From NCBI GenBank assembly GCA_029213065.1, contig JARGPH010000010.1, forward strand, positions 62,001 through 126,000: DNA of 64,000 bases. The letters are read 5' to 3'. Numbering within the stretch: position 1 is the first letter of the stretch; the number at the start of each line of letters is the position of its first letter. The DNA comes from Verrucomicrobiales bacterium. GTDB taxonomy: Bacteria > Verrucomicrobiota > Verrucomicrobiia > Verrucomicrobiales > DEV007. The notes under the pieces are model-generated. The model worked only from the letters and a program-made list of their open reading frames with translations, made no database searches and had not been told where the DNA came from. Made by a program: the position numbers and the translations under genes. Positions 2,734 through 23,297 of the stretch are shown here, in pieces.

Positions 2734-4005
2734 ATGATTATCTGGTCCGGGTGGGGACTTCTCACCATCATTTCTCTTATCCTCGGCGCTATCGCCGGCA
2801 CCTTACTCTCTATCGGAGGCTCAGGCATTTTCGGCCCTGTCGTGGCGATTTTCGTCCCCGCGCTCATCTTTTCATGCGCGGCCGTCATCAACGGACTGTT
2901 CACAAAATGGCTCAACCGCGGGGAAGAGAGGCACCTCATCGATCCGAAAACCAACGAGGTGTTCATCCAGAAGCGGGGCGGCTCCTTCTTCTTCATTCCT
3001 CTGAAAGCATACACTTATATCTACGCCCTGATCGCACTGGTGCTCTGGGTCATGGGAGGTCTCGCTTCCGTCAGCACCGATATGACAGGCGTCACCGAAG
3101 CCCATAAAGAGCGATTTGAGAGTGCCTCAGACCTCGCCGATAACCGCTCCGCTGAGAATACAGGAAACAGCCTCGATGCCGCCCGCTCGGCTCAGAAATT
3201 CCAAACACTCGCCGTAACGCTGGACCGCGAAACATTTGATCGCAACTCGGTGCAGATGTCCGAAAAGAACTTCACCACTTACTGCCGCGCCAGCGGAGCG
3301 AATGTTCTTTTCATCACGCACGTAAACGACCTCAGTGATTACAAGGAATCCGAAACAAGAAACGCACTCTACAATAACTGCTGGAAATCAGCCCACCGGA
3401 GTATCTCGTCGAATATGAAAACAGCCGGAGCAACCGATCTTGCCGTCTGCCTTCAGGACGGGGTGACCTCCAGAGTTATTTCCGGCCTCATCGGGGAACG
3501 TTATTCCGTCCGATCCGGCTTCAGCGCTGAATTAACTCTCTTCAAGTATTTCGAAGAGGATGCCGAAGAGGATGCCAAAGTGTTTACCGCAGGTGATACG
3601 ACAGAGGCAGATGAAACTACGGAATCACCGGAAGCCGATACAACCGTTTCAGAGGCAATTCCTGAAACCCAGCCTGAGCCCGAACCCGCAGAGGAAACCA
3701 CCACCCCGGCTCCGAACTCCCCGCCAGCTGAGAAAGTGACGCCGCCAAGTTCTCCCGTTACCAACAAGCCTGAAACCGTCGAGCCGAACATGCCAGCCGC
3801 AGTGAAACCTGAACCGGAAGCCCCCCTCGAAGATCTCACGAAAATCCGGACATGGAAGGCCAGCGACGGGAAAACGATGGAAGCCCGATTGATCGAGCTC
3901 AAAGGAAATACCGCTGTTTTTCAGAAGGAGGACGGGAACACTTACAATGTTCCGCTTTCAAGGCTCAGTGAAGAGGACATTGAATTGATCCGGAACAACC
4001 AGTAG
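2734..4005 (+). CDS. Membrane protein with C-terminal SHD1-like domain
   Basis: A 423-residue protein of unknown role. Hydrophobic segments lie at about residues 4-27, 32-57 and 90-112, so the N-terminal quarter is membrane embedded. Residues 115-280 form a soluble region with several Cys. A low-complexity acidic and Pro/Thr/Glu-rich linker covers about 285-365. The C-terminus (about 368-420) matches the SHD1-type pattern common in PVC bacteria: RTWKASDGKTMEARLIEL, then an acidic segment and LSEEDIELI. SHD1 domains are usually taken to be protein-binding, but that is family knowledge, not shown here. A second, smaller SHD1-like protein lies at 28262-29053. No operon partner: guaB is divergent and the giant adhesin is convergent. 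Confidence 0.8.
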   Translation: MIIWSGWGLLTIISLILGAIAGTLLSIGGSGIFGPVVAIFVPALIFSCAAVINGLFTKWLNRGEERHLIDPKTNEVFIQKRGGSFFFIPLKAYTYIYALIALVLWVMGGLASVSTDMTGVTEAHKERFESASDLADNRSAENTGNSLDAARSAQKFQTLAVTLDRETFDRNSVQMSEKNFTTYCRASGANVLFITHVNDLSDYKESETRNALYNNCWKSAHRSISSNMKTAGATDLAVCLQDGVTSRVISGLIGERYSVRSGFSAELTLFKYFEEDAEEDAKVFTAGDTTEADETTESPEADTTVSEAIPETQPEPEPAEETTTPAPNSPPAEKVTPPSSPVTNKPETVEPNMPAAVKPEPEAPLEDLTKIRTWKASDGKTMEARLIELKGNTAVFQKEDGNTYNVPLSRLSEEDIELIRNNQ

Positions 4006-4142: not shown

Positions 4143-7100
4143 CTACGGTTGAATCAGCGGTGACTCAGTGTGGGCATTGAGCACTCCGATTTCTTTTTGA
4201 AAACTGTAATCGAAGATACTTTCTCCATTCGGCCCGTATTGAGAATAGCCCTCGTAGAAGAGCTTGTAGGGATTCACGACGCGGAAAGATCTTTTCCTCT
4301 TACGCTGTACGTCATCGTTTTCCTCGTCGTCGATACCGTAGAGAAAACTAAGAGTCTCTTCACCGCCTCCTGATCCAGAGGAGCCAGCCCCTTCTTCACC
4401 GCCCGCTGACTCGCCGGGAATGACAATGACCTCGGGAAGGGCTTCCAACACGATAGTGTCATAGTAAAAGGCATATCCTGCCGCATTGACTGGAGTCGGT
4501 CCGCTCCCAAGTTCATTGGTGTGCTCGTTCGGGAAGAGAATCTCATCACCGAGAATGTTGATCGTGAATTCGTCATCGCCCTGAGTCGGAGAAGGATCGA
4601 CCTGTGCACCCGGGTAGATAACACCGTTCAGAATCGCGCCATTCGCCACCTCGTTGTTATCGCGGCTTGGAAGATAGAAACGGAGCTCGTCCTCACCGGC
4701 AAACTCGCTCTGCGCATCCGCAGTGAGGGTTCCACCCAATGGATCGGCCGGTACATTCCGGCTCACACCGATTTGGGTGACGCCTCCGGTGGAGGTGCCG
4801 AGGCTCAAGGCATTGGCATGACCGATCATCGCATCGATCATCGTCAGGTCGCCACCCGCGCCGACAGTAATGTCGCCGCTCCAGTTCCCCGTTGAACCGA
4901 GCGAAGCAATCGCAAGATCGAGGTCGTCGCCATGGCCGATCTTAGCAAATGAGGCGCCGCTACCTTTGGTCGCCATGAGAACGATCTCGTTTCCGGCGAC
5001 TACATCGATATCTCCGGAAAGATTCCCTGCCCCTCCGTATCCTCCGAAACCGATCTGGGCGTATGAGAAGTTACCAAGCCCACCCGATACGAGGATATCA
5101 ATGGTAACGTCGACCGTCAGCGCAGTGCCGGCAATGTTGCCGCTGAAGCGCGATCCACCGTGACCGATCTGAGCGCCCGCCATCACTCCGGGACCGCCAC
5201 GCACTTCAAGGTCACCACCGACTTGCAGTGAAGTCAGGGTTGAGTTGACGGCTCCGGCGTAAAAGGCACCACCATGCCCGATAGCGGCTGAGGCAAAATC
5301 CCCGCTGTTTCCGAAGAGAGAGACATCTCCGAGCGCGACAAGATTAATGGATCCACCAATCGCGCCGGATCCTTCGCCTCCGCCGTGTCCGATAGAGGCT
5401 GAAGTGAAGTTATCGGTTCCACCGGCGAGTTCCACCGAGTTGGCGGCGATCGTGATATTGCCGGATTTTGAGCCGCTGGCCCAGCGGCCACCGTTTCCGA
5501 TCAAAGCGTAGGAATCACTTCCACTACCACCACGAACGGTAAGGCCGGCAGTAGCGTTCCCTTTTCCAAGATCAATGACAATATCACCGCTGAAGCTGGC
5601 ACTGATTCCATTGCTCCCACCGTGACCGATCTGGGCTGCGGCGTTCGTTACCGAACCACCCTGAAGCGCAAGTCCCCCCTCTTTAGTGAACACCATAATC
5701 GCTCCGGTCGAAGCAAGCCCGTTTGCTCCTCCACCAAGACGGTAAACTTCTTCGTTGAATCCGATTTGAGCAGCCGAACCGACCATCGCGGCACCACCAT
5801 TCACCTCAACGGAATTTCCGGCGACGCGGGTCGTTCCATTAGCAGAACCGACCACGACCGCGCGGACCTGCGCCGCATTGCCCACGATAACACCGCCGGC
5901 ATTGCCGAAGCCATTTGCGTCGGCGAAAACACTGTCTGCGTTCAGCGAGAGAACCGGCAGAGGAGCAACCGCATCGCGATCGATCGTGCGCATCAGCCCC
6001 GTCGAACCGTCCCATCCCCCCACGACAGCAACGCTACCGGTTCCGGCATTCTGGACGGAGCTCATGAAGGTCACATCACCCGTCGCGAAGAGATCGATAC
6101 CGTTGGCGTTGCTGGCAAACACTCCGGTGCCATCAATGAGCAGGTTGCCATTCGTCACACCGATCTCGACATCACCTCCGCCAATCATGTTCTGAATCAG
6201 GCCGGTGGTTTTGCGAAGAGTCGCGCTCGTGTCGAGCTGTCCGGTGATAAGAGCCAGGCGTGAACCGGCGGCTACACCGGTGGTTCCGAGATGCCCCATG
6301 AATCCGATTGTGGTCTGATCGACCAGGCTCGTGGTCCCACCGATGTTGGCAAGAATGTTGCCGGTGCGAGTGCCGGTGGTGTAGTTGGCATTGGCAGGAA
6401 CAAAGGTATCGCGAACGCCGCCGTGGCCGACAAGCGCATAGGCTTCAACTCTTGTTCCACCTCTCACGGTGAGGTTCCCGGTCGCGTCAATCTGGATGCT
6501 ACCGGCGTGATTTCCGTTGGATCCGAATCCACCGTTTCCGATCTGCGCGTAAGCTTCGTCCACCGTCGTTCCGCCATTGAGCACGATGTTGTTCGCGAGC
6601 ACCGCAATAGTGTCGGAAGCGACTCCGTGGTTTCCGATGTTCTCGTGTCCGCCATGTCCGATCTGGACATAGTTCGCAGTCTGAGTGGTGGTTCCGACCT
6701 GGCCTGCGCCGGCGGTCAGGATCACATCGCCATTGCTGGCGCGAACTTTGACACTGCCCTGAGTGGTCGAGGTCGTCTGCGCCCCACCGTTTCCGATTTG
6801 AGCAAAAGCATCATCGACCGTCGTGCTCGCACCACCGATCAGGACGATGTTTCCATTGGTGGTTTCAACAAGAATGTCGGCTTCGCGGGTGCCGGTGGAG
6901 GTAAGACCACCCAGTCCGATCATCGCAAAAGAATCGTTGCCGGCGCCACCAAGAACTCTGACACCCGTTCCGGCGCGAACCGAGATGATGTCGTTCGCAT
7001 CGCCGAGAGTGCCGTCGGTGATATTTCCACCGTGGCCGATCATCGCAAAGCTGGCGTCAGTGCCCCCACCCTGAACGAGCACCTCTCCCTCAGCAGTGAT

Positions 7101-10100
7101 ATCGATGGCTCCATTGTGAGCGCCGTCGGCATCATGTCCGCCGTGACCAATCATTCCGTAGGTTCGTGCCGCAGTGCCGTTGGTCGCAGGAAGTCCGCTG
7201 CCCTGAATGAGGACCGAACCGCCATTGGAACCACTGACGCTGATATCTCCCGTGCTGTTGCCGGTCGCCGAACGGGTTCCGTGACCGATCTGGACATAGG
7301 CATCGTCGGCAGTTCCGCGGTTGAGGATAACATTGCCTCCGCTAATCACCTCAATACCACCGCTTCGGGCACCGGTCGTCTGCATACCACCATGACCGAG
7401 CTGAGCGTAGTTGTTGCCCCCCTGACCTGCGGTAAAGGCAATGTCTCCGCTCGTCGAAGCGACTGTAATTTCCCCGCTCTTGCTGAGCTTCGCTGTCGCG
7501 GCTCCGGTCGGGTCGGAATCATAGCCACCGTGACCGAGTTGCACGTAGCCGCGCGAGTAACCGGAATGGTTGTAGGCGACACTGACCGCGTTGGCCCTTG
7601 AACTGGATACGGCAGTCGTGAAGGTCACCACTCCTCCTGCGGAAATGGTTCCGACCTGGTTGTTCATCGCGTCAAACAACTGCCCCGCAGCGTTGGAGGT
7701 CAGAGCGGCATATTCTGGTAGAACCGGATCGGTAACCGTGATCACGATGCTGCTGCGGTCGATATTACTGGTGATTGCGAGAGTCGCGGTCGCGCCACCT
7801 CCCGCGGCTGCGTCGATGAGGGCACCACTGCTTTCTCCGCTCACCGCTGCAATGCCGCCACTGGTGAAGCTGACACCGGAAGCGCCCATCACGTCGATAT
7901 CTCCGCTGTGATCGCCTTTGGCTGAACGACCTCCGTGACCAATCTGCGCATAGCGCTCATTCACCTCGCCAGCTGTGAACACCACCGAACCGCCAAGAGC
8001 GTGCGCAGTGATCGATCCGGAAAAGTCACCATTGGTGGAATGGCCACCGTGCCCCAATTGAACGTAGGCGTTCGCTCCAACGCTTCCGGCGGCATTGAAG
8101 GTGATATCACCCGCGTTGCTCTCGACGAGAATGTTACCGCGATTGCTCGCATTGGGTGCAGTCGTCAATGCATCGGAATCGTAGCCGCCATGACCGAGTT
8201 GAGCGTAAGTCTGACCGGCGCTGCCTGCGGTGAATGCAACCGATCCGGTGGAACGGGCCGTGATATCACCGTCGAGGATCATGTCGTTGTCGACATCGAC
8301 GAGACCGAAGTTGCCTCTCGCGGAGCGACCACCGTGGCCGAGCTGGGCATAGGTTTCAACGCGGTTGCCCGCAGCGAAAGTAATCGATCCATTCGTGCCG
8401 AGCGCCTCAACTGCGATGTTGCCGCTGTGATCGCCGTTCGTCGTGTAGCCTCCGTGGCCAATTTGCGCGTAGGATTCAGAGCGGCTTCCGGCTGCGAAGT
8501 GGATCGCGCCGTCGTTGCTCGTCACCGAAACATTACCGAGGTTTCCACCATCGCCGGGAGTGAGTGCGGTGGGAAAATCCGCGTCATGTCCACCGTGGCC
8601 GATCTGCACGTAGGAGCGAAGGCCGAGATTGAGATGATCGAAAGTGATCACCGAGGCAGGTGCTCCGGCAACGGAGTCGGATACGGTCTCAGTGAGGTCG
8701 ATGACACCGCCGGTGCTCACGGTTCCCACCTGAACATCACCATCGAAAAGGCGGCCGAAGGAGTCACTCCGAATTTCACCGGTAAACCCGGCAAGCGGAT
8801 TGGCGTAGGTGATCACGATCGTGCCGCGCTCGAGGTTTCCGGTCTGCGCCATGGTGTAGTTGGACGCGCCGTTGTTCTGAAGGAGATTATTAAGGGTGCC
8901 ATTGTTAGTCACCGTTTGGCTGGCTGCACCTCCGTTGAATGAGACAAAGGAGATGTCACCGGATGCCTGCACGTCGATCTCACCGCGATGATCACCGCGG
9001 GCATTACGTCCACCATTTCCGATCTGCGCGTAGGCATCATTGCCTGCACCGGAAGTGAAAGTCACTGCGGTGCCTGGATTGGTCGTGCTACCGGTTCCGG
9101 AGAGCACCGTGACATTTCCGCTCATTCCCAGTGGATCAACCGATGGAGTGTTGAGGTGATAAGTAGTCGTCGAGGTATTCGCTGCCGGAGCGCTTTCCTC
9201 AGGATCAATGTTGAGAGTCGAAGAGAACGAGGAACTCGCCCCACCGTGCCCGATCTGTGCGTTGGTATTGGAACCTGTTCCCGCGGTGAAGAGCACCCCT
9301 GCGCCTCCGTCGACAAGAATGTCACTGCCGCCGTAAAGGTAGGCGACTTCAACAGCATCGCCTGCGCCATTGACGTTCGTCGAGAACGCCACTTCCCCGG
9401 TGAGATAATTGACGGTTCCGACCACCGTGAGAGTGGCATCGATCAGATTGCCTTTTCCGTCGTCAGCGAAAGTCACGGTGCCAGCGCCAGCTCCCTGTGG
9501 ATCGACAATGATCTTCACAGATCCGGGAGCCAAAGCCCCATTTTCAAGAGTCGCCGATCCCGCCTGAGTTGCCGCAATTGAACCCGCTTCGGTCCGGACG
9601 ACTTCATAGCCGTGATTGCCGAACGCCTCGTAGCCGCCGTGACCGACCTGGACGTAGGCCTGACTGCCGTTCTGCGCAGTGAAACTCACCGCTCCGCCTC
9701 CGACCACAGAAATATCACCGTTGTGTCCTTCACCCGCTTCCGCAGCGTTGCGGTAACCACCGTGACCGATCTGGCCGTAGGAACCCGTTCCCACTCCGCC
9801 GGTGAAGCTGATCTCAGCCCCCGCGGACACATTGATCGCACCGCTGTGGGTTCCTGAGAAATATCGGTCGTTGTTATTGGCCTGCGTAAAATTCGGGCTG
9901 CTGCCGCCACGTGTGAGGCGATGATCGTTGTATCCACCGTGACCAATCTGAGTGTAACTGCCGGTTGTGCCGGCTGCGAAGGTGATCGCACCCGTGGCGT
10001 TCACAGTGATGATACCTTCATGGCCGCCACTCGCGAAGTAGCCTCCATGCCCCAACTGTGCGTAGTGCGTGGAGCCCACTGAACTGGAGGCGTCAAAAAG

Positions 10101-13100
10101 AATATCTACGGCGCTAACCGTGATGCTGCCGACATGATCACCATCAGTGAGCGACCCGCCATGACCAATCTGGACAAACGATTCGGTTCCACTTCCGGTC
10201 GTGAATGCCACCTTACCCGCTGAGGATGTCACCGCGATATTGCCGTCGTTACCGACCCGCTCGGCCGCTGTCGGACCGCGTTCCAAAGTCGCAGGATCAT
10301 TGTCAGGGTAGTAAGTTGAGTTCGGATTGTCCGCGTCGCGTCCACCGTGCCCGATCATCGCGTAGGTCTGCCCTGCGCTGCCTCCGTTGAAGGTGATATC
10401 ATTGAGAGCCGTAACGTCGATTTTTCCGCTGTGATCGCCACGCGCGGTCCGGCCGCCATGACCGATTTGCACGTAGGTATCGGTTCCGTTTCCGGCGAGA
10501 GCAGTGATCCCACCGCCAGTCGAGGAAACGGAAATCGTTCCGCTGTGATTGCCTGCCGCAGCATTGCCACCATGTCCCAGTTGAGCATAGTTCGTCGCAC
10601 GGGAGTTCAACATTCCTGTCGCGGTATTGGCAAAAGTTCCCGCTGTGAATTTCACATCACCTGCTGCCTCCACCATGATCTCGCCGCTGTGGTCACCGCT
10701 CGTGGTGAAACCGCCATTGCCGAGCTGAGCGTAGTTGGCGTCACCGAGGCCGGCCGTGAACTCAATATTTCCGGCAGTGGAGACCACCTTGATGTTCCCC
10801 TGCTGGTTGGGGGTGCCTCCTGCTGCTCCGGTTGGGTCGGCGTCGTGTCCGCCGTTGCCCAACTGCACATATCCCCGTGAGTAGTTGATATGATTGTAGG
10901 CAACGCTGATCCCATCCGCTCCGGCTTTTGCGACAGCGACGTCGAAAGTCACCGTGCCATTCGTGGCGACCGAACCAACGGGGGCACCATTTCCGTCATA
11001 AAGAATACCAGCCGCATCTGAAGTGATCGTCGCATACTCAGGAGAAACCGGATCAAACACCGTGATCACAAAGCTACTGCGATCGAGGTTGCCGGTGTTG
11101 GCGAGTGTCCCTGTCGCTCCGCCCCCTGCTGCGGCGGCATCATTGAGAACGGTTCTTTTTTCACTGGTCACGGTGGCGACTCCGCCTCCGGTGAAGAAGA
11201 CACCGTTCGCACCGAGTACTTCGATGCCCCCGTTGTGATCACCTCTCGCGGCACGTCCACCGTGACCGAGCTGAGCATAGCCGTCATTGGCTTCGCCTCC
11301 GGTGAAAATGACAGCCCCCCCGTGAGCGCGTGTCGTGATACTTCCTGAGAAATCACCACTTGTGGACATACCACCGTGTCCGAGTTGGACATAGGAATTT
11401 GACCCGACGCTTCCCGCTGCGCTGAAAGCAATATCACCCGTATTACTCTCGACGAGAATGTTCCCCCGGTTGCTTGGATTACCCGGCGTCGTCACGGTAT
11501 CGGCATCGTAGCCGCCGTGGCCGATCTGAGCATAAGTCTGACCGGCGCTTCCTGCGGTGAAAGTGATTGCCCCCGCGGCCCGCGCAGTGATGTCACCGTC
11601 GGCGAGCATGTCGTTATCAACGTCGACGAGACCGAAGTTGCCTTTCGCGGAGCGCCCGCCATGACCGAGTTGGGCATAAGTTTCCGCGCGGTTGCCTGCG
11701 GTAAAGGTGATCGCTCCGTTTGTGCCGAGCGCTTCAACGACGACATTGCCACTGTGATCCCCGTTGGTTGCGTAACCACCGTGACCGATCTGAGCATAGC
11801 TTTCGTTACGACTTCCGGCAGCGAAGCTGATCGCACCGTCATTGCTTATCACCGAGATATTGCCGAGGTTACCGGGATCGCCTGGAGTGGTTGCGTTAGG
11901 ATTATCGGCATCGTCACCACCATGACCAATCTGCACGTAGGCGCGAAGTCCCAGGTTCAAATGATCGAAAGTGATCACCGATGCGGCGGCTCCGGCGCTG
12001 GAATCAGAGACCGTAACGGTGAGGTCAACAACGCCCGCAGTCGTTACAGTTCCCACCTGAGTTTCCCCGTCGAATAGACGGCCCGCGTCATCGCTCCTGA
12101 TCGTTCCGGTAAACCCGGCGAGAGGATTGCTGTAGGTGATCACGATGCTGCCGCGCTCGAGGTTTCCGGTCTGCCCCATCGTGTAGCTGGTCGCAGCGTC
12201 GTTCTGAAGCAGGTTGTTGAGCGTGCTGCTGTTGGTTGAGGTTTGGGTGGCCGCGCCGCTATTGAAGGCAGCGAATGAAATGTCACCGGCAGCTCTCACA
12301 TCAATTTCGCCACGGTGGTCACCACGAGCGTTGCGTCCACCGTTTCCGATCTGAGCATAGGCGTCATTGCCTGCACCTGAGGTAAACATTAACGCAGCGT
12401 TAGGGTCAGTCGTGTTCCCGGTTCCGGAAAGCACCGTGATGTTCCCGCTCGTTCCCAGTGGATTCGCAGAAGGAGTGTTGAGGTGGTAAGTCGTGCTCGA
12501 AGTGTTCACCGCCGGAGCGACCTCCTCCGGATCAATGTTGAGGGTCGAAGAGAACGAAGAGACCGGGCCACCGTGACCGATCTGAGCGTTCGTATTCGTG
12601 CCGGTTCCCGCCGCGAAGGTGACTCCGGTGCCACCATCGACGAGGATGTCACTGCCGCCATGGAGGTAGGCCACTTCCACCGCGTCGCCTGCAGTGTTAA
12701 TGTTGGAGGTAAAGCTCACTTCGCCGGTCAAGTAGTTGACCGTTCCAACCACAGTGAGAGCACCGTCGATCAGATTGCCTTTTCCATCATCAGTGAAAGT
12801 CGCTGTTCCCGCGCCGGTTCCCTGAGGATCAATGATAATTTTCACTGAACCGGGAGCCAACGCGCCATTGCCCAGATTAGCTGAACCCATCTGAGTAGCA
12901 GCAATCGAACCCGCCTCGGAGCGGACCACTTCATAGCCGTGGTTACCGAAAGCTTCGTAGCCACCGTGACCCACCTGAACATAACCCTGAGCGCCATTCA
13001 GCGCGGTGAAGTTGACGCTTCCCCCTCCGACGACAGAGATGGCGCCATTGTGACCTTCGCCCGCTTCAGCCGCGTTGCGGTACCCACCGTGGCCAATCTG

Positions 13101-16100: not shown

Positions 16101-19100
16101 GCCGGTATGGTCGCCACCGGTCAAATTCCCTCCGTGACCAAGCTGCGCATACGCATCCGTGCCGGGACTGGTGTTGGTCGCAGCGAGGCGGAACTCGACC
16201 GCGCCCGCCGTTGACTGCACATTGATGCCGCCGCTGTTGCCGGGATCACCGGCGCCGACACCCACCGCGGCGGCCTCATGACCACCGTGTCCAAGCTGAA
16301 CGTAGTTGCGAGTGCTCGTCCCTGTCTGGAAAAGAATAGTATCCAGCGTGGTCACTTCTATCTCACCCGAATGACTTCCACCGGCGAGACGACCGCCGTG
16401 GCCAAGTTGAGCGTAACGGTCAGCAGCTCCTCCGCCGGAGCGCACTGTCAAACCGCCCGAGACGCCTCCAACCCCTGCGTTTACTGTGATATCACCGCTA
16501 TGGTTGCCGATGGCACTGCGTCCGCCGTGTCCCAGTTGCGCATAGGCATTCGCGACAGTTCCCACCGCCGCAGCGGCGACAGTGATATCCCTGTCTGCCG
16601 TCACTTCAATTGTGCCACGATGGTCTCCGCTGGTAGCATAACCGCCGTTACCCAGTTGCACGTAGGCCGCATCTCCGCTTCCGGCTTGTTCTGTTTGAAA
16701 AAGAATACTGCCCCCTCTCGAGGTGACATTGATATTCGCCGCAGAGCCGAGTGGAGCCACCGTCGAATCAGCATCATATCCGCCGTTGCCCAACTGAGCG
16801 TAGCTGCGGGCTCCTGACCCGCCACTGAACGTGATATCTCCCGCCGCAGTGACACGAATAGTCTCAAGCGCCTGGCCCATCGCATCGATAAGACCATGAT
16901 TACCTCGCGCGGTCCGACCGCCGTTCCCCACCTGAGCGTAATTATCGGCACCGGTTCCCGCCTCGAAAGTGATCGCTCCGGACAACGCTGAAACCGTGAT
17001 ACTCCCACTTGTCCCACCATCGACATCGCGTCCACCATGTCCAATCTGCACATACGCTTCAGTGGCGTTCGATCCTTTAAAAACGATGTCACCGCCAGTC
17101 GCCGTCACACTGATATTGCCCACTTTAGACAAAAGGTCAGCACCGCCGTATCCGTCTGCAGCATAACCTCCGTGTCCGATCTGAGCGTAAGCATCCTGAC
17201 TGAGGTTGGCTGTTGCGGCAGGATCAACACCGCCCGCAGTGAAGGCGATACCGTTGCCGGCTGTCACCGTAATACTGCCACGGTGATCACCGTTTGCAGC
17301 AAGACCACCATGGCCCAACTGAACGTAGTTACGAAAGTCCTGTGCCTGCATGTCAGGGCCGGCGACCGGATCGATAAGGTCGCTCGCGGTAAAGGTGATC
17401 GCCCCGGCGGCTTGCACATTGATGTTCGCATCGTGCCCGTCACCATCAACGCCGCCCGACGAGGCCGCATCAGAATCATATCCACCGTGACCCAACTGTG
17501 CCCAGCTGCGTCGACCGTTGCCCTCGCTGGCAGCTGTGTCGTCTCCGAATCCGGAGCCGTCGCCCGACACGAAAATGATGTCGCCTCCTGCCCGCACATC
17601 GATGCTATTCAAACCGAGCAGATTCCCGCTGTGGGCGCCTTGCGTTGCATGACCGCCGTGCCCCAACTGCACGTATGATTCCTCTCCGGTTCCCGCCGTG
17701 AAGAAAACGCCTCCGGTATTAGTAACCAAAGCACTCCGCGTGTTTACGAAGATGTCACCACTGTTACCCACTTTTGCTGAAACTCCGGTGAGGTAGTCAG
17801 CATCGTGCCCGCCATGCCCGAGTTGCGCATAGGTGCGGAGCGTCGAACCGCCAAGGAACGAGATAGCACCGAAAGCGTCCGTATAGATATCTCCAACGTG
17901 ATCGCCTTTTCCGAGACGCCCGCCGTGCCCCAGCTGCGCGAAGCCGTCGACACCTGCCTTTGAGGCATCGAATGTGATTGCTCCGCCCAAAGCCGCAACA
18001 TCCACTTTTCCCTTCTGGCTGCCGTCAACATTCAGACCGCCATGACCAAGTTGCACATAACCATCGTTCACCGCAACGGCCTCTCCCGAAGTCCCGGCGT
18101 TGAATGCCGTGAAGGTGATACCGCCGCCGGCTTCCACCCGGATATCACCTGAATGCCCGGTCGTGTCAGCGGTTCCGTAACCGTCCGAATCGCGACCTCC
18201 GTGGCCCAACTGTGCGAAACTGTCCTGAGAGAAAAACGACACCGGAGCATTGACCGGGTCACTGGCGAGAATGCCCCCCGAGGTGAAGGTAAGGTTTCCC
18301 TCTGCCACTACGGTGATATCACCCGAATGATCGCCACTGGATGCCAAACCTCCATGACCCAGCAGCACGTAGTTCCGGTAATCTTCTGCAGCAGGATCGG
18401 TTACCACTGCTGAAGTAAAGCTGACATTTCCACCGGAGGTCACATTAATATTTCCCCGGTGTCCGATACCATCGACGCCACCGGAACTCGCGGCATCAGC
18501 ATCATAACCGCCGTGACCCAACTGAGCGTAACTGCGTCGGCCATGTCCGACAGTGGCGACGAAGGCCGTGCCCGAGCCGTCCAAATCACCAATGCCGGAT
18601 CCATCGCCGGAGGTGAAGGTGATATCCCCTGCCGAGCGCAAGTCGATCATCCCGAAATTGGCCCCCATGTTGAGGTGGCCGCCGTGTCCGAGTTGGACAT
18701 AGGATTCCTCTCCGCTGCCGCCGAGAAACGACACGGATCCCACCGCATTGACCAAGGCACCGATCAGATTGTTATTGATGAGAATGTCACCCGTGTTTCC
18801 TTTGGTGGGAGTGAGAATGTTGGAATCGGAATCATAGCCACCGTTTCCAATCTGAGCGTATGTCCGCTGATGCGAACCACCCGCGAGAAGTATATCACCG
18901 GTCGCATCAACAGTGATGTTCCCGACATGATCACCATCCGTCGCCCTGCCGCCGTTGCCGATTTGCACGTAAGCATCTGCTCCACTGCCTCCGGTAAATG
19001 TAATTTGAGCGTTTGCGTTAGTCACTTTGGTGCCATCGAAACCGGCTCGTACCGTGATGTTACCGCTCGATCCCAGCGGCACTCCCGATGGGGTATTAAG

Positions 19101-22100
19101 ATGATAACTCGTCGTCGAAGCATTAACCGCAGGCGAGACCTCCTCGGGCCGGATGTTCCGGTTTGTTGCGAGGTCAGCGTCGTAGCCGCCATGACCAATT
19201 TGCGCGTATGCCTGGCTGCTTTGGCCTCCGGAAAACAGCACTCCATCTGCACCTTCCACCAGTATGTCGCTGCCTCCATAGAGGTAGGCCACGTCGACCG
19301 GGTCACCGGAGCTGTTGACATCGGAAACGAAAGTCACTTCCCCACTGAGATAGTTGACGGTGCCGACGACAGTGGAAGCGCCGTCGATAAGATTGCCGTT
19401 TCCATCATCGGTGAACACCGCCGTGCCCGCGCCAGCCCCCTGAGGATCGACTGTGATGCGCACTGATCCCGGTGCGAGCGTTCCGTTGACCAGATTAGCT
19501 GTTCCCGCCTGAGTGGCAGTGATCGAACCGACTTCGGTACGGACCACTTGATACCCGTGATTACCGTATGTCTCGTATCCTCCATGGCCCACCTGAGCGT
19601 GTGTCTGACCAAGGGCTCCTGCCGAAAAGCTCACCAGACCGCCCCCGACTACGGAGATATCGCCATTGTGTCCCTCGCCTGCTTCCGCGTCGTTGCGATA
19701 GCCACCATGACCAACCTGCGCGTAGGCGGAAGCCTGATTACCCCCGGTAAAAGTGATATTATTGCCGCCTGACACAGTGATTCCTCCTGTGTGAGTTCCG
19801 GGAAAGTAGCGATCATTGGCATTATTCTGCACATAAGCCCCGGTGGTGCCGCCACGGTTCACGCGGTGATCGTTGCGTCCACCGTGTCCGATCTGGACGT
19901 AACTGCTCGAAGTTCCGCCGGTGAAAACAACGTCACCACCTGCCGTCGCCGAGATATCCCCGGTATGTCCCCCACTGGCGAGGTAACCACCATGACCGAG
20001 TTGGGCATAGTGAATCGTGCCCGCTGCATTCGAGGCATCGAAGACGATTCCCCCGGCAGCGTTTACCGTGATGTGTCCTACCTGATCACCATCGGTGTAT
20101 GATCCCCCGTGGCCCAAAAGGACAAAAGATTCCGTTCCCGAACCGGCCGTAAAAAGCACCCCGCCCACGGTTGAGGTAACATTGATGTTCCCCGAATTGC
20201 CGATACGCTCGGCAGCGGTGGGACCGCGATCCACGGTGTTTGGATCATTGTCAGGATAGTAATTGGGATTCGGATTGTCGGCGTCACGTCCCCCGTGGCC
20301 GAGCATCGCATAAGTTTGCGTCGTCGTGCCACCTGAGAATGATATGTTTCCAAACGCACTGACGTCGATGCTGCCGCTGTGATCACCGCGCGCAGTCCGG
20401 CCACCGTGGCCAAGCTGAGCATACTTGTCGGTACCACTGCCTGCGGAAAAACTGATCGTGCCGGGACCACCTTTAACGAAAGACACATCGTCTTCCCCCG
20501 CTTCATTAAAGATTCCGTCACGATCGACATCGAAAACATCTGAGAATGCACCATCCGTTCCGGCGCTGACAATGATTGCCCCGCCGTAATTACCAATCGC
20601 ACTGAGACCTCCGTTCCCCAGCTGAACGTAGGCATTCGTGCCTACGCCGGTATTCCCGTCGAAAATGATATCCTGAGCGGCTCTCGCGGTGATCGATCCG
20701 GTATGATTTCCGTCAGTACTCAACCCGCCATTACCAAGATGAGCGTACGCGTTTGTCCCCGTGCCGGAACTGAAAAGAATACTTCCAGCAGCCGACGCCA
20801 CCCGGATACTACCGGTTTTGTCGGTGGTGCCTCCGCCGGAATCAGCGTCATTCCCCCCGTTGCCGACCTGAACATAGCCGCCGCTGTTGGCGCTGCCGGT
20901 GAACTGAATATCACCTTTTGCTAAAATCGCCACATCGCCACTGTGAGCACCCCGAGCGAGGCGCCCGCCATTTCCAATTTGCGCATAGTTATCCGTGCCT
21001 GCACCAGCCAAGCCAGTGATGCCACCATTCGCTGAGAAGACCGAGATATTGCCACCGTGGCTGCTCCCTGCAATACCCGCCTGGTATCCGCCGTGCCCAA
21101 TTTGAACATAGTTCTGAGTCGATGCGGAGCCGGCGTTCATCACGATGCCATTGGCCGCGGAAACCCGGATATCTCCGGAAAGATTGCCCGCCGCCGTCGT
21201 TGTCGTTCCGTCAGCGCCACCATGTCCGATCTGTGCGTAGTTCCTGACCTGACCGTTGCCAGCTGTCATCGTAAGCTGATTGGTAAGCTGAATGTTGATG
21301 CTGCCGGTACTCGCCAACCCCGTGGAGACATCCCGGTATCCCACCTGGGCATAGCGATCCGCTGCGACCGATGCTGCCACGCCCACGACCGGAGCGACGA
21401 CATTGAGATCGTATCCGAGGATCCCGGTCCGTCCGTCACGGCTCCCCACGGCGATTCCCTGCACCGCAGACTCGCTACCAATGTAGACCGAACCCTCGTT
21501 GCTGCCGTATTCCCCAACTGCAAACGTCTCATCCGTGACCACCGGAGCAGCGTAAGAGTTGGCGCCCGCTGAACCGGGCTGATTGGCCGCACCATCCCAA
21601 CCTGCGACTAGATAGATGCCGCCATTGCTACTGTTCTGTATGTTCGCATTGATGAAAATATCGTCGTGGGCGAGCAGGGTGAGAGAGTTTGAGTTCGTCC
21701 AAACCACATTTGCACCCGCATTTACAGTGATGTCCCCGTCCTGGCCCGGCGTGTCGAGCGAGTCAGTGGCAATGATGACGTTGTTATTTGCCAGTTGCCC
21801 CACCAATGTCGTGGAACCGATTGAGTTGGTCGTCGAAGCGCCTGCACCGGCTGTGATTGTAAAATTCGTCGGGTCAAGGAGAAGAGTGCCGTTGAATCCC
21901 GATTCCGCCCTCGTAGAGACATTACCGTCGAAGAGCAAATTTTGCTTACCGCTGACCTCGACGAAACCACCATTGCCTGCGCCGGAAGCCTCCGCGCTGA
22001 TCTCACCGCGAAACTCCGTGTCACGGTCCGACCAAACTATCACAGTACCCGCGTCGCCATCGCCAGTGGCGTCGGCAAGAATCAGTGATCCCGACTCTAC

Positions 22101-23297
22101 ATTAACACTCCGGGCATTGCCCAGGTCCGTGTCACGTCCTTGAAATCCACCGCCGATCCGCACCGATCCACCGCCGGTTGATCCGCTCGCGTCTACTACT
22201 GCTGTTCCGCCGATGGCGACATTCTGTCCTTCGACGGTGATATCGCCACCTTTGCCGGCTCCGGATGATACATTGATTAAACCGCCCACCTCGACCGATT
22301 CACTACCCGTGATGCGCACCGATCCGCCTTCGGCACGAATCGCACCGTCGACACGCGCGTAGGCCGCTTGAATCACGGCGCTCGCAGACTTGCCAGCAGA
22401 ATAAGAAGAGGATGATGAGGTCACTTCGATCGAACCCGAGTTCGATACGGAACCTCCCACTCCGCGGAGGAAGGCACGCCCGCCCTGATTCACCGCACCA
22501 ACGGCACGGATCGATCCCTTATTGTTGATCGCCAGCGCATACATATTTCCATGTGCCTTCAATTCGACAGCAGCACCTTCAATCGACCCCGTATTCAAAA
22601 TGCCCGTGTTCCCGCTACCACCCGCACGAACAAAAACACGCTCTCCCATCGTGTTCGATTTTGCAGCGAGAAGCACTTCGCGACCCGCACCGATGCCCAC
22701 GGTTCCGTCGCGGGCTGTGATCGATCCCTCGTTCGTCACCGTATTACCGAAAAGAAAAACATCCCCGCCGATCGCATTGATCTTACCCAGGTTGACGACC
22801 CCTGCGTCACCGCTTCCGAGGAAGGTCATGTCGCCCCCGGCAAGGAATTCTCCATTACTGAGGTCAAGGGTCGAAAGCACGAGTCCATGCACATCAATAA
22901 TCCCGGTGGAACCGACGAGAATACCATTGGGGTTGATCACGAAAACGCTTCCGTTCCCCTGCAGTGCCCCGAAAATCGCGGAGGGGTCACCTCCCGTAAC
23001 CCGGTTCAAAACCGCCGCCTGCGCTCCCGGTTGATTGAAACGAGTCGTCTCGCCGGCAGCAATGCTGAAGTCCGACCAGTTGATGATCGCCATCGCGGAA
23101 TTCTGATTCACGTTGAGAAGACCATTGCCGCCGTTAGCGATAGAAATATCACCATGGACGACCACGCCTCCACTGGGATTGGCCGCAACCGGGCCAGTGG
23201 AGAACAACAGCGCAGGAAAGAGGACTGCGAGAGTCGTTGCCTGGAGTGGGGAGTTACGCCGAAGAGGCGATTGGGGGATTAAGGTACACGCGTTCAT
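4143..23297 (-). CDS. Giant filamentous-haemagglutinin-type secreted repeat protein (about 6,384 aa)
   Basis: Probably a surface or released adhesin of the two-partner-secretion type. A signal peptide spans about residues 1-40 (arginines at 13-14, hydrophobic LAVLFPALLF, cleavage near VAANP). A TPS domain follows to about 290, with the hallmark NGSVFVINPNGILVG. From about residue 620 to 6,000 it consists of about 100 units of 40-60 residues, each with YxQ(L/I)G(H/N)GG, then usually GDHSGDI and a short beta-prone stretch ITFxAG; this suits a long beta-helix. Spaced inserts carry TFTDDGxGNLID or DxDxDG Ca-loop-like motifs. The C-terminus is a Ser/Gly linker, an acidic-basic patch and an unrecognised end, with no autotransporter barrel or sorting signal. 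I saw no Cys after the leader. The ATG at 23297 is preferred to TTG at 23303. No TpsB partner gene lies in the window. The frame is intact over 19 kb. Confidence 0.9.
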   Translation of the reverse strand: MNACTLIPQSPLRRNSPLQATTLAVLFPALLFSTGPVAANPSGGVVVHGDISIANGGNGLLNVNQNSAMAIINWSDFSIAAGETTRFNQPGAQAAVLNRVTGGDPSAIFGALQGNGSVFVINPNGILVGSTGIIDVHGLVLSTLDLSNGEFLAGGDMTFLGSGDAGVVNLGKINAIGGDVFLFGNTVTNEGSITARDGTVGIGAGREVLLAAKSNTMGERVFVRAGGSGNTGILNTGSIEGAAVELKAHGNMYALAINNKGSIRAVGAVNQGGRAFLRGVGGSVSNSGSIEVTSSSSSYSAGKSASAVIQAAYARVDGAIRAEGGSVRITGSESVEVGGLINVSSGAGKGGDITVEGQNVAIGGTAVVDASGSTGGGSVRIGGGFQGRDTDLGNARSVNVESGSLILADATGDGDAGTVIVWSDRDTEFRGEISAEASGAGNGGFVEVSGKQNLLFDGNVSTRAESGFNGTLLLDPTNFTITAGAGASTTNSIGSTTLVGQLANNNVIIATDSLDTPGQDGDITVNAGANVVWTNSNSLTLLAHDDIFINANIQNSSNGGIYLVAGWDGAANQPGSAGANSYAAPVVTDETFAVGEYGSNEGSVYIGSESAVQGIAVGSRDGRTGILGYDLNVVAPVVGVAASVAADRYAQVGYRDVSTGLASTGSINIQLTNQLTMTAGNGQVRNYAQIGHGGADGTTTTAAGNLSGDIRVSAANGIVMNAGSASTQNYVQIGHGGYQAGIAGSSHGGNISVFSANGGITGLAGAGTDNYAQIGNGGRLARGAHSGDVAILAKGDIQFTGSANSGGYVQVGNGGNDADSGGGTTDKTGSIRVASAAGSILFSSGTGTNAYAHLGNGGLSTDGNHTGSITARAAQDIIFDGNTGVGTNAYVQLGNGGLSAIGNYGGAIIVSAGTDGAFSDVFDVDRDGIFNEAGEDDVSFVKGGPGTISFSAGSGTDKYAQLGHGGRTARGDHSGSIDVSAFGNISFSGGTTTQTYAMLGHGGRDADNPNPNYYPDNDPNTVDRGPTAAERIGNSGNINVTSTVGGVLFTAGSGTESFVLLGHGGSYTDGDQVGHITVNAAGGIVFDASNAAGTIHYAQLGHGGYLASGGHTGDISATAGGDVVFTGGTSSSYVQIGHGGRNDHRVNRGGTTGAYVQNNANDRYFPGTHTGGITVSGGNNITFTGGNQASAYAQVGHGGYRNDAEAGEGHNGDISVVGGGLVSFSAGALGQTHAQVGHGGYETYGNHGYQVVRTEVGSITATQAGTANLVNGTLAPGSVRITVDPQGAGAGTAVFTDDGNGNLIDGASTVVGTVNYLSGEVTFVSDVNSSGDPVDVAYLYGGSDILVEGADGVLFSGGQSSQAYAQIGHGGYDADLATNRNIRPEEVSPAVNASTTSYHLNTPSGVPLGSSGNITVRAGFDGTKVTNANAQITFTGGSGADAYVQIGNGGRATDGDHVGNITVDATGDILLAGGSHQRTYAQIGNGGYDSDSNILTPTKGNTGDILINNNLIGALVNAVGSVSFLGGSGEESYVQLGHGGHLNMGANFGMIDLRSAGDITFTSGDGSGIGDLDGSGTAFVATVGHGRRSYAQLGHGGYDADAASSGGVDGIGHRGNINVTSGGNVSFTSAVVTDPAAEDYRNYVLLGHGGLASSGDHSGDITVVAEGNLTFTSGGILASDPVNAPVSFFSQDSFAQLGHGGRDSDGYGTADTTGHSGDIRVEAGGGITFTAFNAGTSGEAVAVNDGYVQLGHGGLNVDGSQKGKVDVAALGGAITFDASKAGVDGFAQLGHGGRLGKGDHVGDIYTDAFGAISFLGGSTLRTYAQLGHGGHDADYLTGVSAKVGNSGDIFVNTRSALVTNTGGVFFTAGTGEESYVQLGHGGHATQGAHSGNLLGLNSIDVRAGGDIIFVSGDGSGFGDDTAASEGNGRRSWAQLGHGGYDSDAASSGGVDGDGHDANINVQAAGAITFTASDLIDPVAGPDMQAQDFRNYVQLGHGGLAANGDHRGSITVTAGNGIAFTAGGVDPAATANLSQDAYAQIGHGGYAADGYGGADLLSKVGNISVTATGGDIVFKGSNATEAYVQIGHGGRDVDGGTSGSITVSALSGAITFEAGTGADNYAQVGNGGRTARGNHGLIDAMGQALETIRVTAAGDITFSGGSGARSYAQLGNGGYDADSTVAPLGSAANINVTSRGGSILFQTEQAGSGDAAYVQLGNGGYATSGDHRGTIEVTADRDITVAAAAVGTVANAYAQLGHGGRSAIGNHSGDITVNAGVGGVSGGLTVRSGGGAADRYAQLGHGGRLAGGSHSGEIEVTTLDTILFQTGTSTRNYVQLGHGGHEAAAVGVGAGDPGNSGGINVQSTAGAVEFRLAATNTSPGTDAYAQLGHGGNLTGGDHTGSIDVTAETNLLFRSSSSTGTGSDTYVQLGHGGIDASGNFNGDITATANTGYAQFRSGASTSTTTTAGNNRYALLGHGGTNSLGNFSGDIRLLADDAITFTNQSTSATIGSYTQLGHGGLNATSTVGHTGDIAVTSRTSSITFTGAAGSSTDSYTQLGHGGTNATGSHSGDIAVQSATTTTFTGGTAGIRNYAQLGHGGYNADALAGEGHSGRIGVAAGTNLTFTAGSGASEESYAQLGHGGFGATGNQDGDIVARAGNTLIFNASTGTDTIIPDAIDPINNPPTRIENRGYAQLGHGGYAASGNHSGDITASSQLSGDFVDIGDFDGDGFNEVISMVGGATTTNPFSFLAGTNATADAASDAYAQLGHGGRLATGTRTGDILVDVERTVRFQAGALGARTYAQLGHGGHDAASVIDLLNPIGLANSGDIDVRARTGAVNFLWVATNTATSSETYIQLGHGGFVSDPLISGVDAGGDNSGEIAVEAGTNILFRSTDDATVDSNSNYAQLGHGGLRWVGNHSGDIAARAGTAGVSGTVTFSAPNLTTAAAGISQNRYVQLGHGGFQARGDHSGDISVLSLGSISFRGGRVEGGYAQLGHGGLDADDESTALGNTGDIRVASQTGNINFQWNASTDTPGEFSYVQLGHGGYRNAGDHSGDTTVRAGGLIQFRGGTGNTAPATGFVGNYAQLGHGGFEAAGNHSGDLTVSAGTDGGFTDVFDLNMNGVYGEASLDEVTFTSTGAGSITFLSGGSQADRYAQLGHGGTTARGDHDGNISVTALGNIVFTAGTGTRGYAMIGHGGHDADSHNPDYYGDNDPLNPLRGPTAAERIGNTGNIHVETLDGDILFTTGNATGSTFTPVQIGHGGTYTDGDHIGDITVIADADKSNAGSGGDITFRANTSGTTHSAQIGHGGFEASGGHTGAIVVTAGEAITFTGGSTNNNVQIGHGGMNDHRVTRGGSSPNYTQSNNNDLYYPGTHSGSVMVGAGSNITFTGGSGTAAYAQIGHGGYRNAAEAGEGHNGAISVVGGGSVNFTALNGAQGYVQVGHGGYEAFGNHGYEVVRSEAGSIAATQMGSANLGNGALAPGSVKIIIDPQGTGAGTATFTDDGKGNLIDGALTVVGTVNYLTGEVSFTSNINTAGDAVEVAYLHGGSDILVDGGTGVTFAAGTGTNTNAQIGHGGPVSSFSSTLNIDPEEVAPAVNTSSTTYHLNTPSANPLGTSGNITVLSGTGNTTDPNAALMFTSGAGNDAYAQIGNGGRNARGDHRGEIDVRAAGDISFAAFNSGAATQTSTNSSTLNNLLQNDAATSYTMGQTGNLERGSIVITYSNPLAGFTGTIRSDDAGRLFDGETQVGTVTTAGVVDLTVTVSDSSAGAAASVITFDHLNLGLRAYVQIGHGGDDADNPNATTPGDPGNLGNISVISNDGAISFAAGSRNESYAQIGHGGYATNGDHSGNVVVEALGTNGAITFTAGNRAETYAQLGHGGRSAKGNFGLVDVDNDMLADGDITARAAGAITFTAGSAGQTYAQIGHGGYDADTVTTPGNPSNRGNILVESNTGDIAFSAAGSVGSNSYVQLGHGGMSTSGDFSGSITTRAHGGAVIFTGGEANDGYAQLGHGGRAARGDHNGGIEVLGANGVFFTGGGVATVTSEKRTVLNDAAAAGGGATGTLANTGNLDRSSFVITVFDPVSPEYATITSDAAGILYDGNGAPVGSVATNGTVTFDVAVAKAGADGISVAYNHINYSRGYVQLGNGGHDADPTGAAGGTPNQQGNIKVVSTAGNIEFTAGLGDANYAQLGNGGFTTSGDHSGEIMVEAAGDVKFTAGTFANTATGMLNSRATNYAQLGHGGNAAAGNHSGTISVSSTGGGITALAGNGTDTYVQIGHGGRTARGDHSGKIDVTALNDITFNGGSAGQTYAMIGHGGRDADNPNSTYYPDNDPATLERGPTAAERVGNDGNIAVTSSAGKVAFTTGSGTESFVQIGHGGSLTDGDHVGSITVSAVDILFDASSSVGSTHYAQLGHGGYFASGGHEGIITVNATGAITFAAGTTGSYTQIGHGGYNDHRLTRGGSSPNFTQANNNDRYFSGTHSGAINVSAGAEISFTGGVGTGSYGQIGHGGYRNAAEAGEGHNGDISVVGGGAVSFTAQNGSQAYVQVGHGGYEAFGNHGYEVVRTEAGSIAATQAGSATLENGALAPGSVKIIVDPQGAGAGTVTFADDGKGNLIDATLTVVGTVNYLTGEVAFSTNVNGAGDAVEVAYLYGGSDILVDGGAGVLFTAGTGSNTNAQIGHGGASSSFSSTLNIDPEESAPAANTSTTTYHLNTPSVDPLGMSGNVTVLSGTGSTTNPGTAVTFTSGAGNDAYAQIGNGGRNARGDHRGEIDVQASGDISFVSFNGGAASQTVTNNGTLNNLLQNNGASNYTMAQTGNLERGTIVITYANPLAGFTGEIRSDSFGRLFDGDVQVGTVSTGGVIDLTETVSDSVAGAPASVITFDHLNLGLRSYVQIGHGGHDADFPTALTPGDGGNLGNVSVTSNDGAIHFAAGSRSESYAQIGHGGYTTNGDHSGNIAVEALGTNGSITFAAGNRVETYAQLGHGGRSARGNFGLVDVDNDMILDGDITARSTGSVAFTAGSAGQTYAQLGHGGYDSDALTTAPNASNRGNILVESNAGDITFNAAGSVGANAYVQLGHGGHSTNGDFSGSITAHALGGSVVFTAGEVNERYAQIGHGGRSAKGDHSGDIDVMGASGVSFTSGGIAAVSGESSGALIDAAAGGGATATLAITSNIDRSSIVITVTDPVLPEYAALTSNAAGQLFDAMNNQVGTISAGGVVTFTTAVSSSRANAVSVAYNHSGYSRGYVQLGHGGYDSDPTGAATAKLSKSGEITVASTSGDIAFTAGQGGNNYAQLGHGGMQTTGARSGGIEVISGGNVILNRGTADDAYVQIGHGTRSATGNSTGDISVSGSNGGSVLIQGSGLPATNGTAARTYGMIGHGGHDADGAHNGAIDITAEGEVLVQGGGTDASFAMIGHGGNITDGTLGDANDIISVRAGTGVRVLGGAGNDSFAMIGLGGLTSTGTREADILVETTNGNIVLIGGASTTVDDAFAQIGNGGAQTTSTTQGSVKVRASNGDVILTAGAGQVGTTTQTANYVQIGHGGHENIGNHGVASDTIAVLANNIVLNGGTTVDEAYAQIGNGGFGSNGNHAGSIQIDATGNLTVRGGTRVEAYALVGHGGVRDTFVPANANYTTGTRTGNILANIGGTTSLVDQTTIGFMGHLGTTGVAAGSRLALITGQLDTSATLRKTTGLIQNMIGGGDVEIGVTNGNLLIDGTGVFASNANGIDLFATGDVTFMSSVQNAGTGSVAVVGGWDGSTGLMRTIDRDAVAPLPVLSLNADSVFADANGFGNAGGVIVGNAAQVRAVVVGSANGTTRVAGNSVEVNGGAAMVGSAAQIGFNEEVYRLGGGANGLASTGAIMVFTKEGGLALQGGSVTNAAAQIGHGGSNGISASFSGDIVIDLGKGNATAGLTVRGGSGSDSYALIGNGGRWASGSKSGNITIAANSVELAGGTDNFTSASIGHGGGEGSGAIGGSINLVALGDVSLFGNSGDFASAAIGHGGAFYAGAVNSTLTSLQVGGDLEVRGGPGVMAGAQIGHGGSRFSGNIAGTALTVDVTIDILVSGGLGNFSYAQIGFGGYGGAGNLSGDIDVVAGNEIVLMATKGSGASFAKIGHGDDLDLAIASLGSTGNWSGDITVGAGGDLTMIDAMIGHANALSLGTSTGGVTQIGVSRNVPADPLGGTLTADAQSEFAGEDELRFYLPSRDNNEVANGAILNGVIYPGAQVDPSPTQGDDEFTINILGDEILFPNEHTNELGSGPTPVNAAGYAFYYDTIVLEALPEVIVIPGESAGGEEGAGSSGSGGGEETLSFLYGIDDEENDDVQRKRKRSFRVVNPYKLFYEGYSQYGPNGESIFDYSFQKEIGVLNAHTESPLIQP
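7500..10500 (-). repeat. Superblock 3 of the giant gene (16 repeat units)
   Basis: The second copy of the 16-unit block, offset by 18 units from superblock 2. The copies have diverged mostly by substitution (for example NLERGSIVITY against NLERGTIVITY, and NLDRSSFVITV against NIDRSSIVITV), so the duplication is not recent but the unit order is fully kept. Confidence 0.8.
10840..13880 (-). repeat. Superblock 2 of the giant gene (16 repeat units)
   Basis: Units 51-66 align one-to-one with units 69-84 of superblock 3, about 3.33-3.36 kb away, including all insertions (PTAAER, NDHR, GEGHNG, TFTDDG, TYHLNTPS, NLERGSIVITY, NLDRSSFVITV). Its first eight units also match superblock 1. Boundaries are approximate. 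Confidence 0.8.
17170..18880 (-). repeat. Smaller 5-unit tandem duplication in the giant gene
   Basis: Units 16-20 align with units 23-27, about 1.03 kb apart. Shared special features are the GDGSG...GRRS(Y/W)AQLGHGG segment, (D/S)DAASSGGVDG, and a (E)D(Y/F)RNYV segment before LLGHGG or QLGHGG. This is a separate event from the larger superblocks. Confidence 0.7.
19000..20600 (-). repeat. Superblock 1 of the giant gene (8 repeat units)
   Basis: Within the giant gene, the repeat units numbered 7-14 from the N-terminus share unit-specific insertions with two later blocks: a YYPDNDP...RGPTAAER segment, an NDHR...TRGG-like segment, an AEAGEGHNG segment, the TFTDDGNGNLID insert and a TYHLNTPS segment, all in the same order. 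Boundaries are approximate. Confidence 0.75.

Follow-up and report, generated by a model that had tools for sequence, protein, structure and literature searches.

TpsA exoproteins such as FHA, HMW1, EtpA and HxuA combine a TPS domain bearing an NPNG motif with a parallel beta-helix passenger. Within this family the adjacency of tpsA and tpsB is usual, not obligatory, large members are often CdiA-like toxin carriers, and the coils of the FHA repeat are 19 residues long; the rise of a beta-helix is 0.48 nm per coil. In the PL6 alginate lyase BcelPL6, an asparagine ladder (Asn/Cys) lies in the T2 loops, on their hydrophobic side, and its 10 steps are called the longest reported to date in the 2019 paper (PMC6879350). 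The leucine-rich-repeat (LRR) protein Crov588 carries a surface histidine ladder with tungstate clusters at histidine patches (PMC9525666).

Here we analysed a window of 64,000 nucleotides (the whole stretch of DNA under study, from a Verrucomicrobiales genome), in which one gene encodes an exoprotein that resembles the TpsA proteins in its TPS domain with NPNG motif and in its parallel beta-helix passenger, as predicted here from eight of the 99 units and from one relative, and that differs from them in having at least 37 aa per coil, a near-invariant G-[H/N]-G-G corner, a length of 6,384 aa and no TpsB beside its gene. Our preferred reading, to which we assign a probability of roughly 0.64, is that of a giant TpsA-type exoprotein with a beta-helix of ~99 coils, whose His/Asn ladder is a structural corner brace and which serves as an adhesive fibre.

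The gene occupies 4143..23297 on the minus strand, with its ATG at 23297 and its stop ending at 4143, in agreement with the position and the 6,384-residue length given in the initial annotation. Its first 40 residues (23178..23297, minus) read as a signal-peptide-like N-terminus, and residues 40-292 (22422..23180, minus) form a TPS secretion domain matched by Pfam PF05860 (E 1.3e-28, 101 bits against a cut-off of 33.5) and NCBIfam TIGR01901 (E 1.1e-22, 79.7 bits against a cut-off of 29.1), with the NPNG-type motif INPNG evident in the translation and in the TIGR01901 match. Searches of structures with phmmer matched this domain to chains of EtpA, of 2odl (HMW1) and of the heme/hemopexin-binding protein (HxuA). 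The PF05860 match supports, at the level of sequence, the earlier view of a secreted protein resembling filamentous haemagglutinins; a TpsB pore would act on the N-terminal TPS domain, and secretion presumably takes place through that pore.

The genome (5.9 Mb, 80 contigs) holds seven TPS domains, and the TPS-domain frames were located on contigs C49, C55, C39, C78, C80 and C62, the exoprotein being on C78. No TpsB gene lies beside that of the exoprotein, ShlB matches (E<=0.01) being confined to C32, C7 and C80 and absent from C78. On C80, one ShlB-type transporter adjoins two tandem TpsA frames, and the imbalance of seven TPS frames against three ShlB transporters suggests shared TpsB pores or missing contig pieces. 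In a related gene (L048), which also has a TPS domain, tpsB lies 7 bases downstream. Next to the exoprotein gene, at 2734-4005 (plus), lies a gene whose C-terminal part matches the SHD1 domain (E 1.2e-6).

At the other end of the protein, residues 6344-6384 (4146..4268, minus) form a C-terminal tail. Since large TpsA proteins are often contact-inhibition carriers of the CdiA kind, a toxin-delivering C-terminus was considered here; the last 185 aa had no Pfam match at E<=10, and the tail, rather than being unrelated to other tails of the genome, is weakly similar to those of two paralogues (E 0.007 and 0.14), so that we regard a toxin carrier as highly improbable. An aromatic-rich tail motif, roughly xGFNxxxMYxEGYxxYDxxGNPxF, was seen 36-68 residues before the end of five frames (the paralogues on C55, with two frames, and C39, and the relatives L059 and L072), and the exoprotein's tail holds a weaker version of it. 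This aromatic-rich tail is possibly a sorting or capping signal.

Behind the TPS domain, the protein is dominated by the core Y-x-Q-[LI]-G-[HN]-G-G, with 65 exact copies and none in 200 composition shuffles. A slightly looser regular expression found 99 copies beyond residue 600, bearing out the initial count of about 100; these 99 units span residues 687-6124 (4926..21239, minus), at a median spacing of ~45 aa, with 37 and 38 aa the commonest. With Y numbered as position 0, so that H/N is position 5, the tallies over the 99 units were Y 81, A/V 62/31, Q 85, L/I/V 50/42/7, Gly (position 4) 99, His 81 plus Asn 16 (position 5), Gly 99 and Gly 97, the polar corner H/N being present in 97/99 units. 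Codons at the invariant positions were varied, with all four Gly codons at each Gly and His encoded by CAC 56 and CAT 25 times, and these mixed codons indicate that the core is kept alike by selection at the protein level and not by recent DNA copying. The strong selection proposed earlier for the H/N spot is supported. The G(D/N)HSG(D/S)I turn said to follow most cores is present, but it is only partly conserved: at a fixed offset, with indels not realigned, its residues G, D/N, H, S and G were found in 63, 45, 40, 31 and 60 of the 99 units, which makes "mostly" generous. A second, weaker histidine stands at position 14 (40/99 units).

Searches for known relatives of the repeat were consistent with the earlier remark that no named repeat family with this core was known to its author. 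Against Pfam and NCBIfam at E<=1, three pieces of 1,584-1,600 aa gave no match and a fourth matched TPS models only, and no PHROG was matched at E<=0.01 by a 343-aa segment or by residues 1-1600. A 63-aa unit had no match in plasmids and phages, and a repeat-profile sequence search of the PDB returned only two unrelated matches (E 0.25 and 0.68). Searches of the literature text for the core strings found no paper on the repeat, the IGHGG matches being unrelated by title; nothing on it appeared among the matches listed for giant genes or two-partner secretion in Verrucomicrobia, and a search of the "filamentous hemagglutinin" literature for a GHGG repeat found none.

The fold was predicted with AlphaFold2 for eight units of the exoprotein (model 1; residues 2203-2545, 15663..16691, minus; pLDDT 92.1, pTM 0.92) and for the L048 protein, from a MAG labelled Gammaproteobacteria (model 2; pLDDT 91.5, pTM 0.88). 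A common set of 63 sequences, made up of the query and 62 of the 65 candidate segments, served for both. The two models share one layout: YAQL forms a strand, G-H interrupts it for two residues, a bridged Gly comes next in most units, and further strands follow near 18-22 and near 26-30. In model 1 the first strand covered core positions 0-3, and positions 8-12 held no strand as long as three residues, although isolated bridged residues occurred near 11 in some of the units. Model 2 had two compact units whose 18-22 and 26-30 strands were fused into one 12-residue strand. Since no such strand at 8-12 is available to partner the 26-30 strand, each strand would find its partner in the corresponding strand of the following unit, giving one coil per unit. 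In structural alignments with VIA, model 1 matched EtpA (Z 12.7 and 2.8 A over 174 aligned positions), level with Cthe_2159 (12.0), and model 2 matched the TPS domain of HMW1 (Z 13.4 and 2.9 A over 186 aligned positions), level with a match at 12.7. Both likenesses to TpsA exoproteins are shared with other helices, since lyase-like ones scored less than 1 Z away and count as ties, and by the tool's own note a Z of 10-13 is middling for repeats. Foldseek with model 1 found nothing at E<=0.001 in the PDB or viral libraries.

Two 19-residue coils per 37-residue unit, as in FHA, had been our first assumption, under which His would recur in every second coil only and would form no continuous ladder. 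The commonest spacing of 37-38 is indeed twice a 19-residue coil, but the strand pattern of both models speaks against this arrangement, and so do the predicted coil counts from structural alignments: when aligned to the antifreeze protein 3p4g, whose coils are of 19 residues, the eight units of model 2 covered 164 residues (~8.6 coils) and those of model 1 covered 185 (~9.7), well short of 16 coils.

Covariation between units bears on the same question. We assembled 2,911 units from the 61 reading frames that carry 12 or more cores, the exoprotein's own genome supplying five of these frames, and left out frames with fewer cores and overlapping loci; the core regular expression fixes Gly at positions 4, 6 and 7 and restricts positions 2 and 3, so that composition at these positions is uninformative. 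After an anchor filter, 2,759 units gave 2,629 neighbour pairs (not redundancy-weighted), among which the strongest couplings between unit i and unit i+1 were, in order, 3-3, 2-0 and -9 with 3, followed by the same-position pairs at -2, -1 and 5; same-position pairs at -2, -1, 5, 1 and 0 all ranked within the top 11 inter-unit couplings, and couplings that link the core strand to the 18-22 strand were scarce in the top rows. Strand pattern and covariation together overturned the two-coil assumption, which we now consider very improbable. One repeat unit is thus predicted to be one coil of a parallel beta-helix, on the agreement of the two models with covariation, and His/Asn would consequently recur in every coil, ~0.5 nm apart; the same models and covariation favour the earlier suggestion of a His at the same place of every coil.

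Neighbouring units were also alike at particular positions, and at 0, 3 and 5 their likeness greatly exceeds that seen in codons or loops. Unweighted agreement at position 5 reached z 19.0, 4.8 and 1.3 at lags 1, 2 and 3 (and z 3.2 at lag 8), and at position 3 z 27.9, 18.0 and 11.0 at the same first three lags. When 17 positions were analysed with redundancy weighting (effective 1,636 of 2,847 pairs), agreement persisted at position 3 (z 19.2), position 5 (z 11.6) and position 0 (z 6.3), with z <=1.9 at the other 14 positions and negative values at positions -6, 2, 8, 9 and 14 (z -2.3 to -4.6). Positions -9, -3, 10, 21 and 24 had unweighted values of z 3.6 to 6.0, those of -9 and -3 falling on weighting to 1.9 and 0.0. 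By frame, position 5 lay above the shuffle mean in 51, at or below it in 7, and was invariant in 3. Across gaps of at least 60 residues, the agreement ratio was 1.32 at position 3 and 1.10 (z 4.5) at position 5, and was reversed at position 0 (0.88); across gaps of at least 80 residues, agreement at position 5 was down to 1.05 (z 1.7).

Like neighbours might have arisen solely from recent tandem duplication of units, and traces of copying do exist. A 1,109-aa higher-order block is doubled within the protein (first copy, residues 3140-4262, 10512..13880; second copy, residues 4263-5371, 7185..10511; both minus, from amino-acid and nucleotide comparison of the two), at the three invariant Gly, neighbours share third bases slightly more often than expected (ratio 1.03, z 2.5), and some single codon columns reach z 2.4. 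The two block copies are 72% identical in amino acids over 1,096 aligned positions and 68% in nucleotides over a 300-nt stretch, and on this sequence comparison the pair (7185-13880, minus) is an old tandem duplication. Against copying of single units as the whole cause, identity outside the core is above 50% in only 20 of the 2,847 neighbour pairs, and the amino-acid signal at positions 0, 3 and 5 outlasts redundancy weighting. Moreover, the His codons at position 5 show no neighbour excess (z 0.5), nor do loop residues, whose identity between units is flat (0.119 at lag 1, 0.120 at lag 10); together with the mere 3% excess in Gly third bases, this indicates that tandem duplication is not the main cause of like neighbours, and duplication as their only source seems to us highly improbable.

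Position 5 was examined for its composition and orientation. It is charged in only 5 of 2,911 units (Asp 4, Arg 1), with no Glu, Lys or Cys, as against 21-42% charged residues at positions 8, 9, 11 and -2; charge is scarce at position 0 (0.7%) and position 1 (0.3%) too, so that low charge by itself does not prove burial at position 5. His was replaced by Asn 346 times, and by Leu (49), Ser (47), Ala (38), Ile (18) and Met (15). These replacements cluster, Asn occurring beside Asn 2.46 times as often as expected and small or hydrophobic residues (AVILMFG) beside the same class 3.7 times, while His beside AVILMFG is depleted (0.47x). In the paralogue A49, the rest of the core is kept through two stretches of mostly non-His units, and with A49 removed, overall neighbour agreement at position 5 was still z 19.1. 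For position 5, dMI was 0.107 with the same position one unit on, three times the value for any other position tried (<=0.032); its weaker couplings were alike for core positions (1, 18, 22 and -9) and loop positions (9, 11 and 14-16), and covariation accordingly does not put position 5 in the core.

The initial annotation proposed that the ladder of His could bind metal ions or respond to pH, which would make it an exposed functional face. Such a face would agree with the His found in every coil of the two models, with its strong conservation, with the weaker His at position 14 and with covariation that does not put position 5 in the core. In Crov588, a viral protein, His likewise recurs at a fixed position of stacked repeats, and its surface ladder binds tungstate clusters (PMC9525666). 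That ladder lies on the concave surface of a leucine-rich repeat (PMC9525666), whereas ours belongs to a predicted beta-helix and is apparently buried. The near absence of charge (5/2,911), the lack of any Cys or Glu, the 346 Asn, the runs of hydrophobic residues and the persistence of the other core residues of A49 across its two mostly non-His stretches all disfavour metal binding, and an exposed metal-binding face at position 5 is unlikely; the metal-or-pH reading as a whole we rate as improbable. The position-5 His fits an inward or tightly packed corner instead.

BcelPL6 and related beta-helix enzymes offer another parallel, since one coil after another carries the same polar residue in the same spot (PMC6879350). 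Its placement on the hydrophobic side, described for the T2 loops of BcelPL6 (PMC6879350), would have a counterpart in the exoprotein. The two differ in that BcelPL6 is an enzyme with a 10-step ladder of Asn/Cys (PMC6879350), whereas the exoprotein has mostly His (81 His and 16 Asn in 99 units) and no catalytic domain by Pfam. Given the 5 charged residues in 2,911 units and the swaps to Asn or to hydrophobic residues in runs, position 5 is more readily seen as part of a structural ladder, comparable to the lyases' asparagine ladder, than as an exposed metal-binding face.

We propose the following architecture, in which the ladder is a structural corner brace. Behind the TPS domain, ~99 parallel beta-helix coils, one per repeat unit, are predicted to form a shaft of ~47 nm at 0.48 nm per coil (~59 nm for an 8,293-aa paralogue). 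In each coil Y-A-Q-L/I would be a strand and G-[H/N]-G-G a tight corner after it, with L/I (position 3) and H/N (position 5) each stacking on its counterpart one coil further to form continuous ladders. The His/Asn ladder would brace the corner in the manner of the asparagine ladder of lyase beta-helices, with side chains that may point inward. A more speculative version, which we rate as very doubtful, is that a nearly unbroken buried file of ~80 His, 0.48 nm apart along the ~47-nm shaft, links its imidazoles into a cooperative pH switch or a proton-conducting wire. As a structural brace, the repeated H/N corner probably stiffens a long surface fibre instead of binding metal.

Loops and inserted stretches between the strands appear to vary freely and would decorate the shaft. 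From sequence and spacing, a non-repeat insert lies between two coils at residues ~1240-1366 (19200..19580, minus), with similar inserts at 12582-12962 (minus) and near residues 4555-4675; two of the inserted stretches, tried against Pfam, had no match at E<=10. Recurrent inserts of ~75-100 aa were observed between coils at 19200-19580, 12582-12962, 11943-12260 and 10872-11180 (minus), and a calcium-loop-like D-x-D-x-D-G occurs twice (residues 923 and 2723; 20490-20531 and 15093-15131, minus) inside long inter-coil insertions.

The repeat is not confined to this gene, since six further frames of the same genome carry its cores (9-119 copies each). Five are TPS frames of 8,173, 8,293, 4,974, 2,270 and 1,970 aa with 83, 119, 54, 9 and 12 cores, respectively, and the sixth, a 924-aa frame cut by a contig end, has 14 cores and no TPS match; a 1,257-aa TPS frame running to a contig end has none. 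Among related genomes, the unit profile matched 28 of 56, comprising 27/33 of the same genus (own genome included), 0/2 in the rest of the family and 1/21 elsewhere in the order, and in a phylum-wide draw over 152 genera (E<=1e-8) the single match among 288 was the genome itself. A named scan yielded 60 loci, 52 with verrucomicrobial labels and eight whose records are labelled Gammaproteobacteria (1), Alphaproteobacteria (2), OCS116 (1), Anaerolineae (2), Planctomycetaceae (1) and Theseobacter (1); TPS domains were present in nine of the ten genomes behind such loci.

These data add a predicted beta-helix repeat family that had no Pfam, NCBIfam or PHROG match in our searches and that is represented by 2,911 natural units in 61 frames. 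Its polar corner, in 97 of 99 units of the exoprotein, compares with the 10-step asparagine ladder called the longest in the 2019 PL6 paper (PMC6879350), and, if ~80 His are indeed buried, it would be the longest polar ladder known to us. Like-with-like neighbours, little affected by tandem duplication, provide a statistical handle on stacking side chains in a beta-helix. For the organism, one genome holds four repeat-bearing frames of 4,974 to 8,293 aa, and by analogy with other TpsA proteins the likeliest role is that of an adhesive or structural surface fibre, the exoprotein being most likely a long stiff fibre, surface-attached or released, that would serve adhesion.
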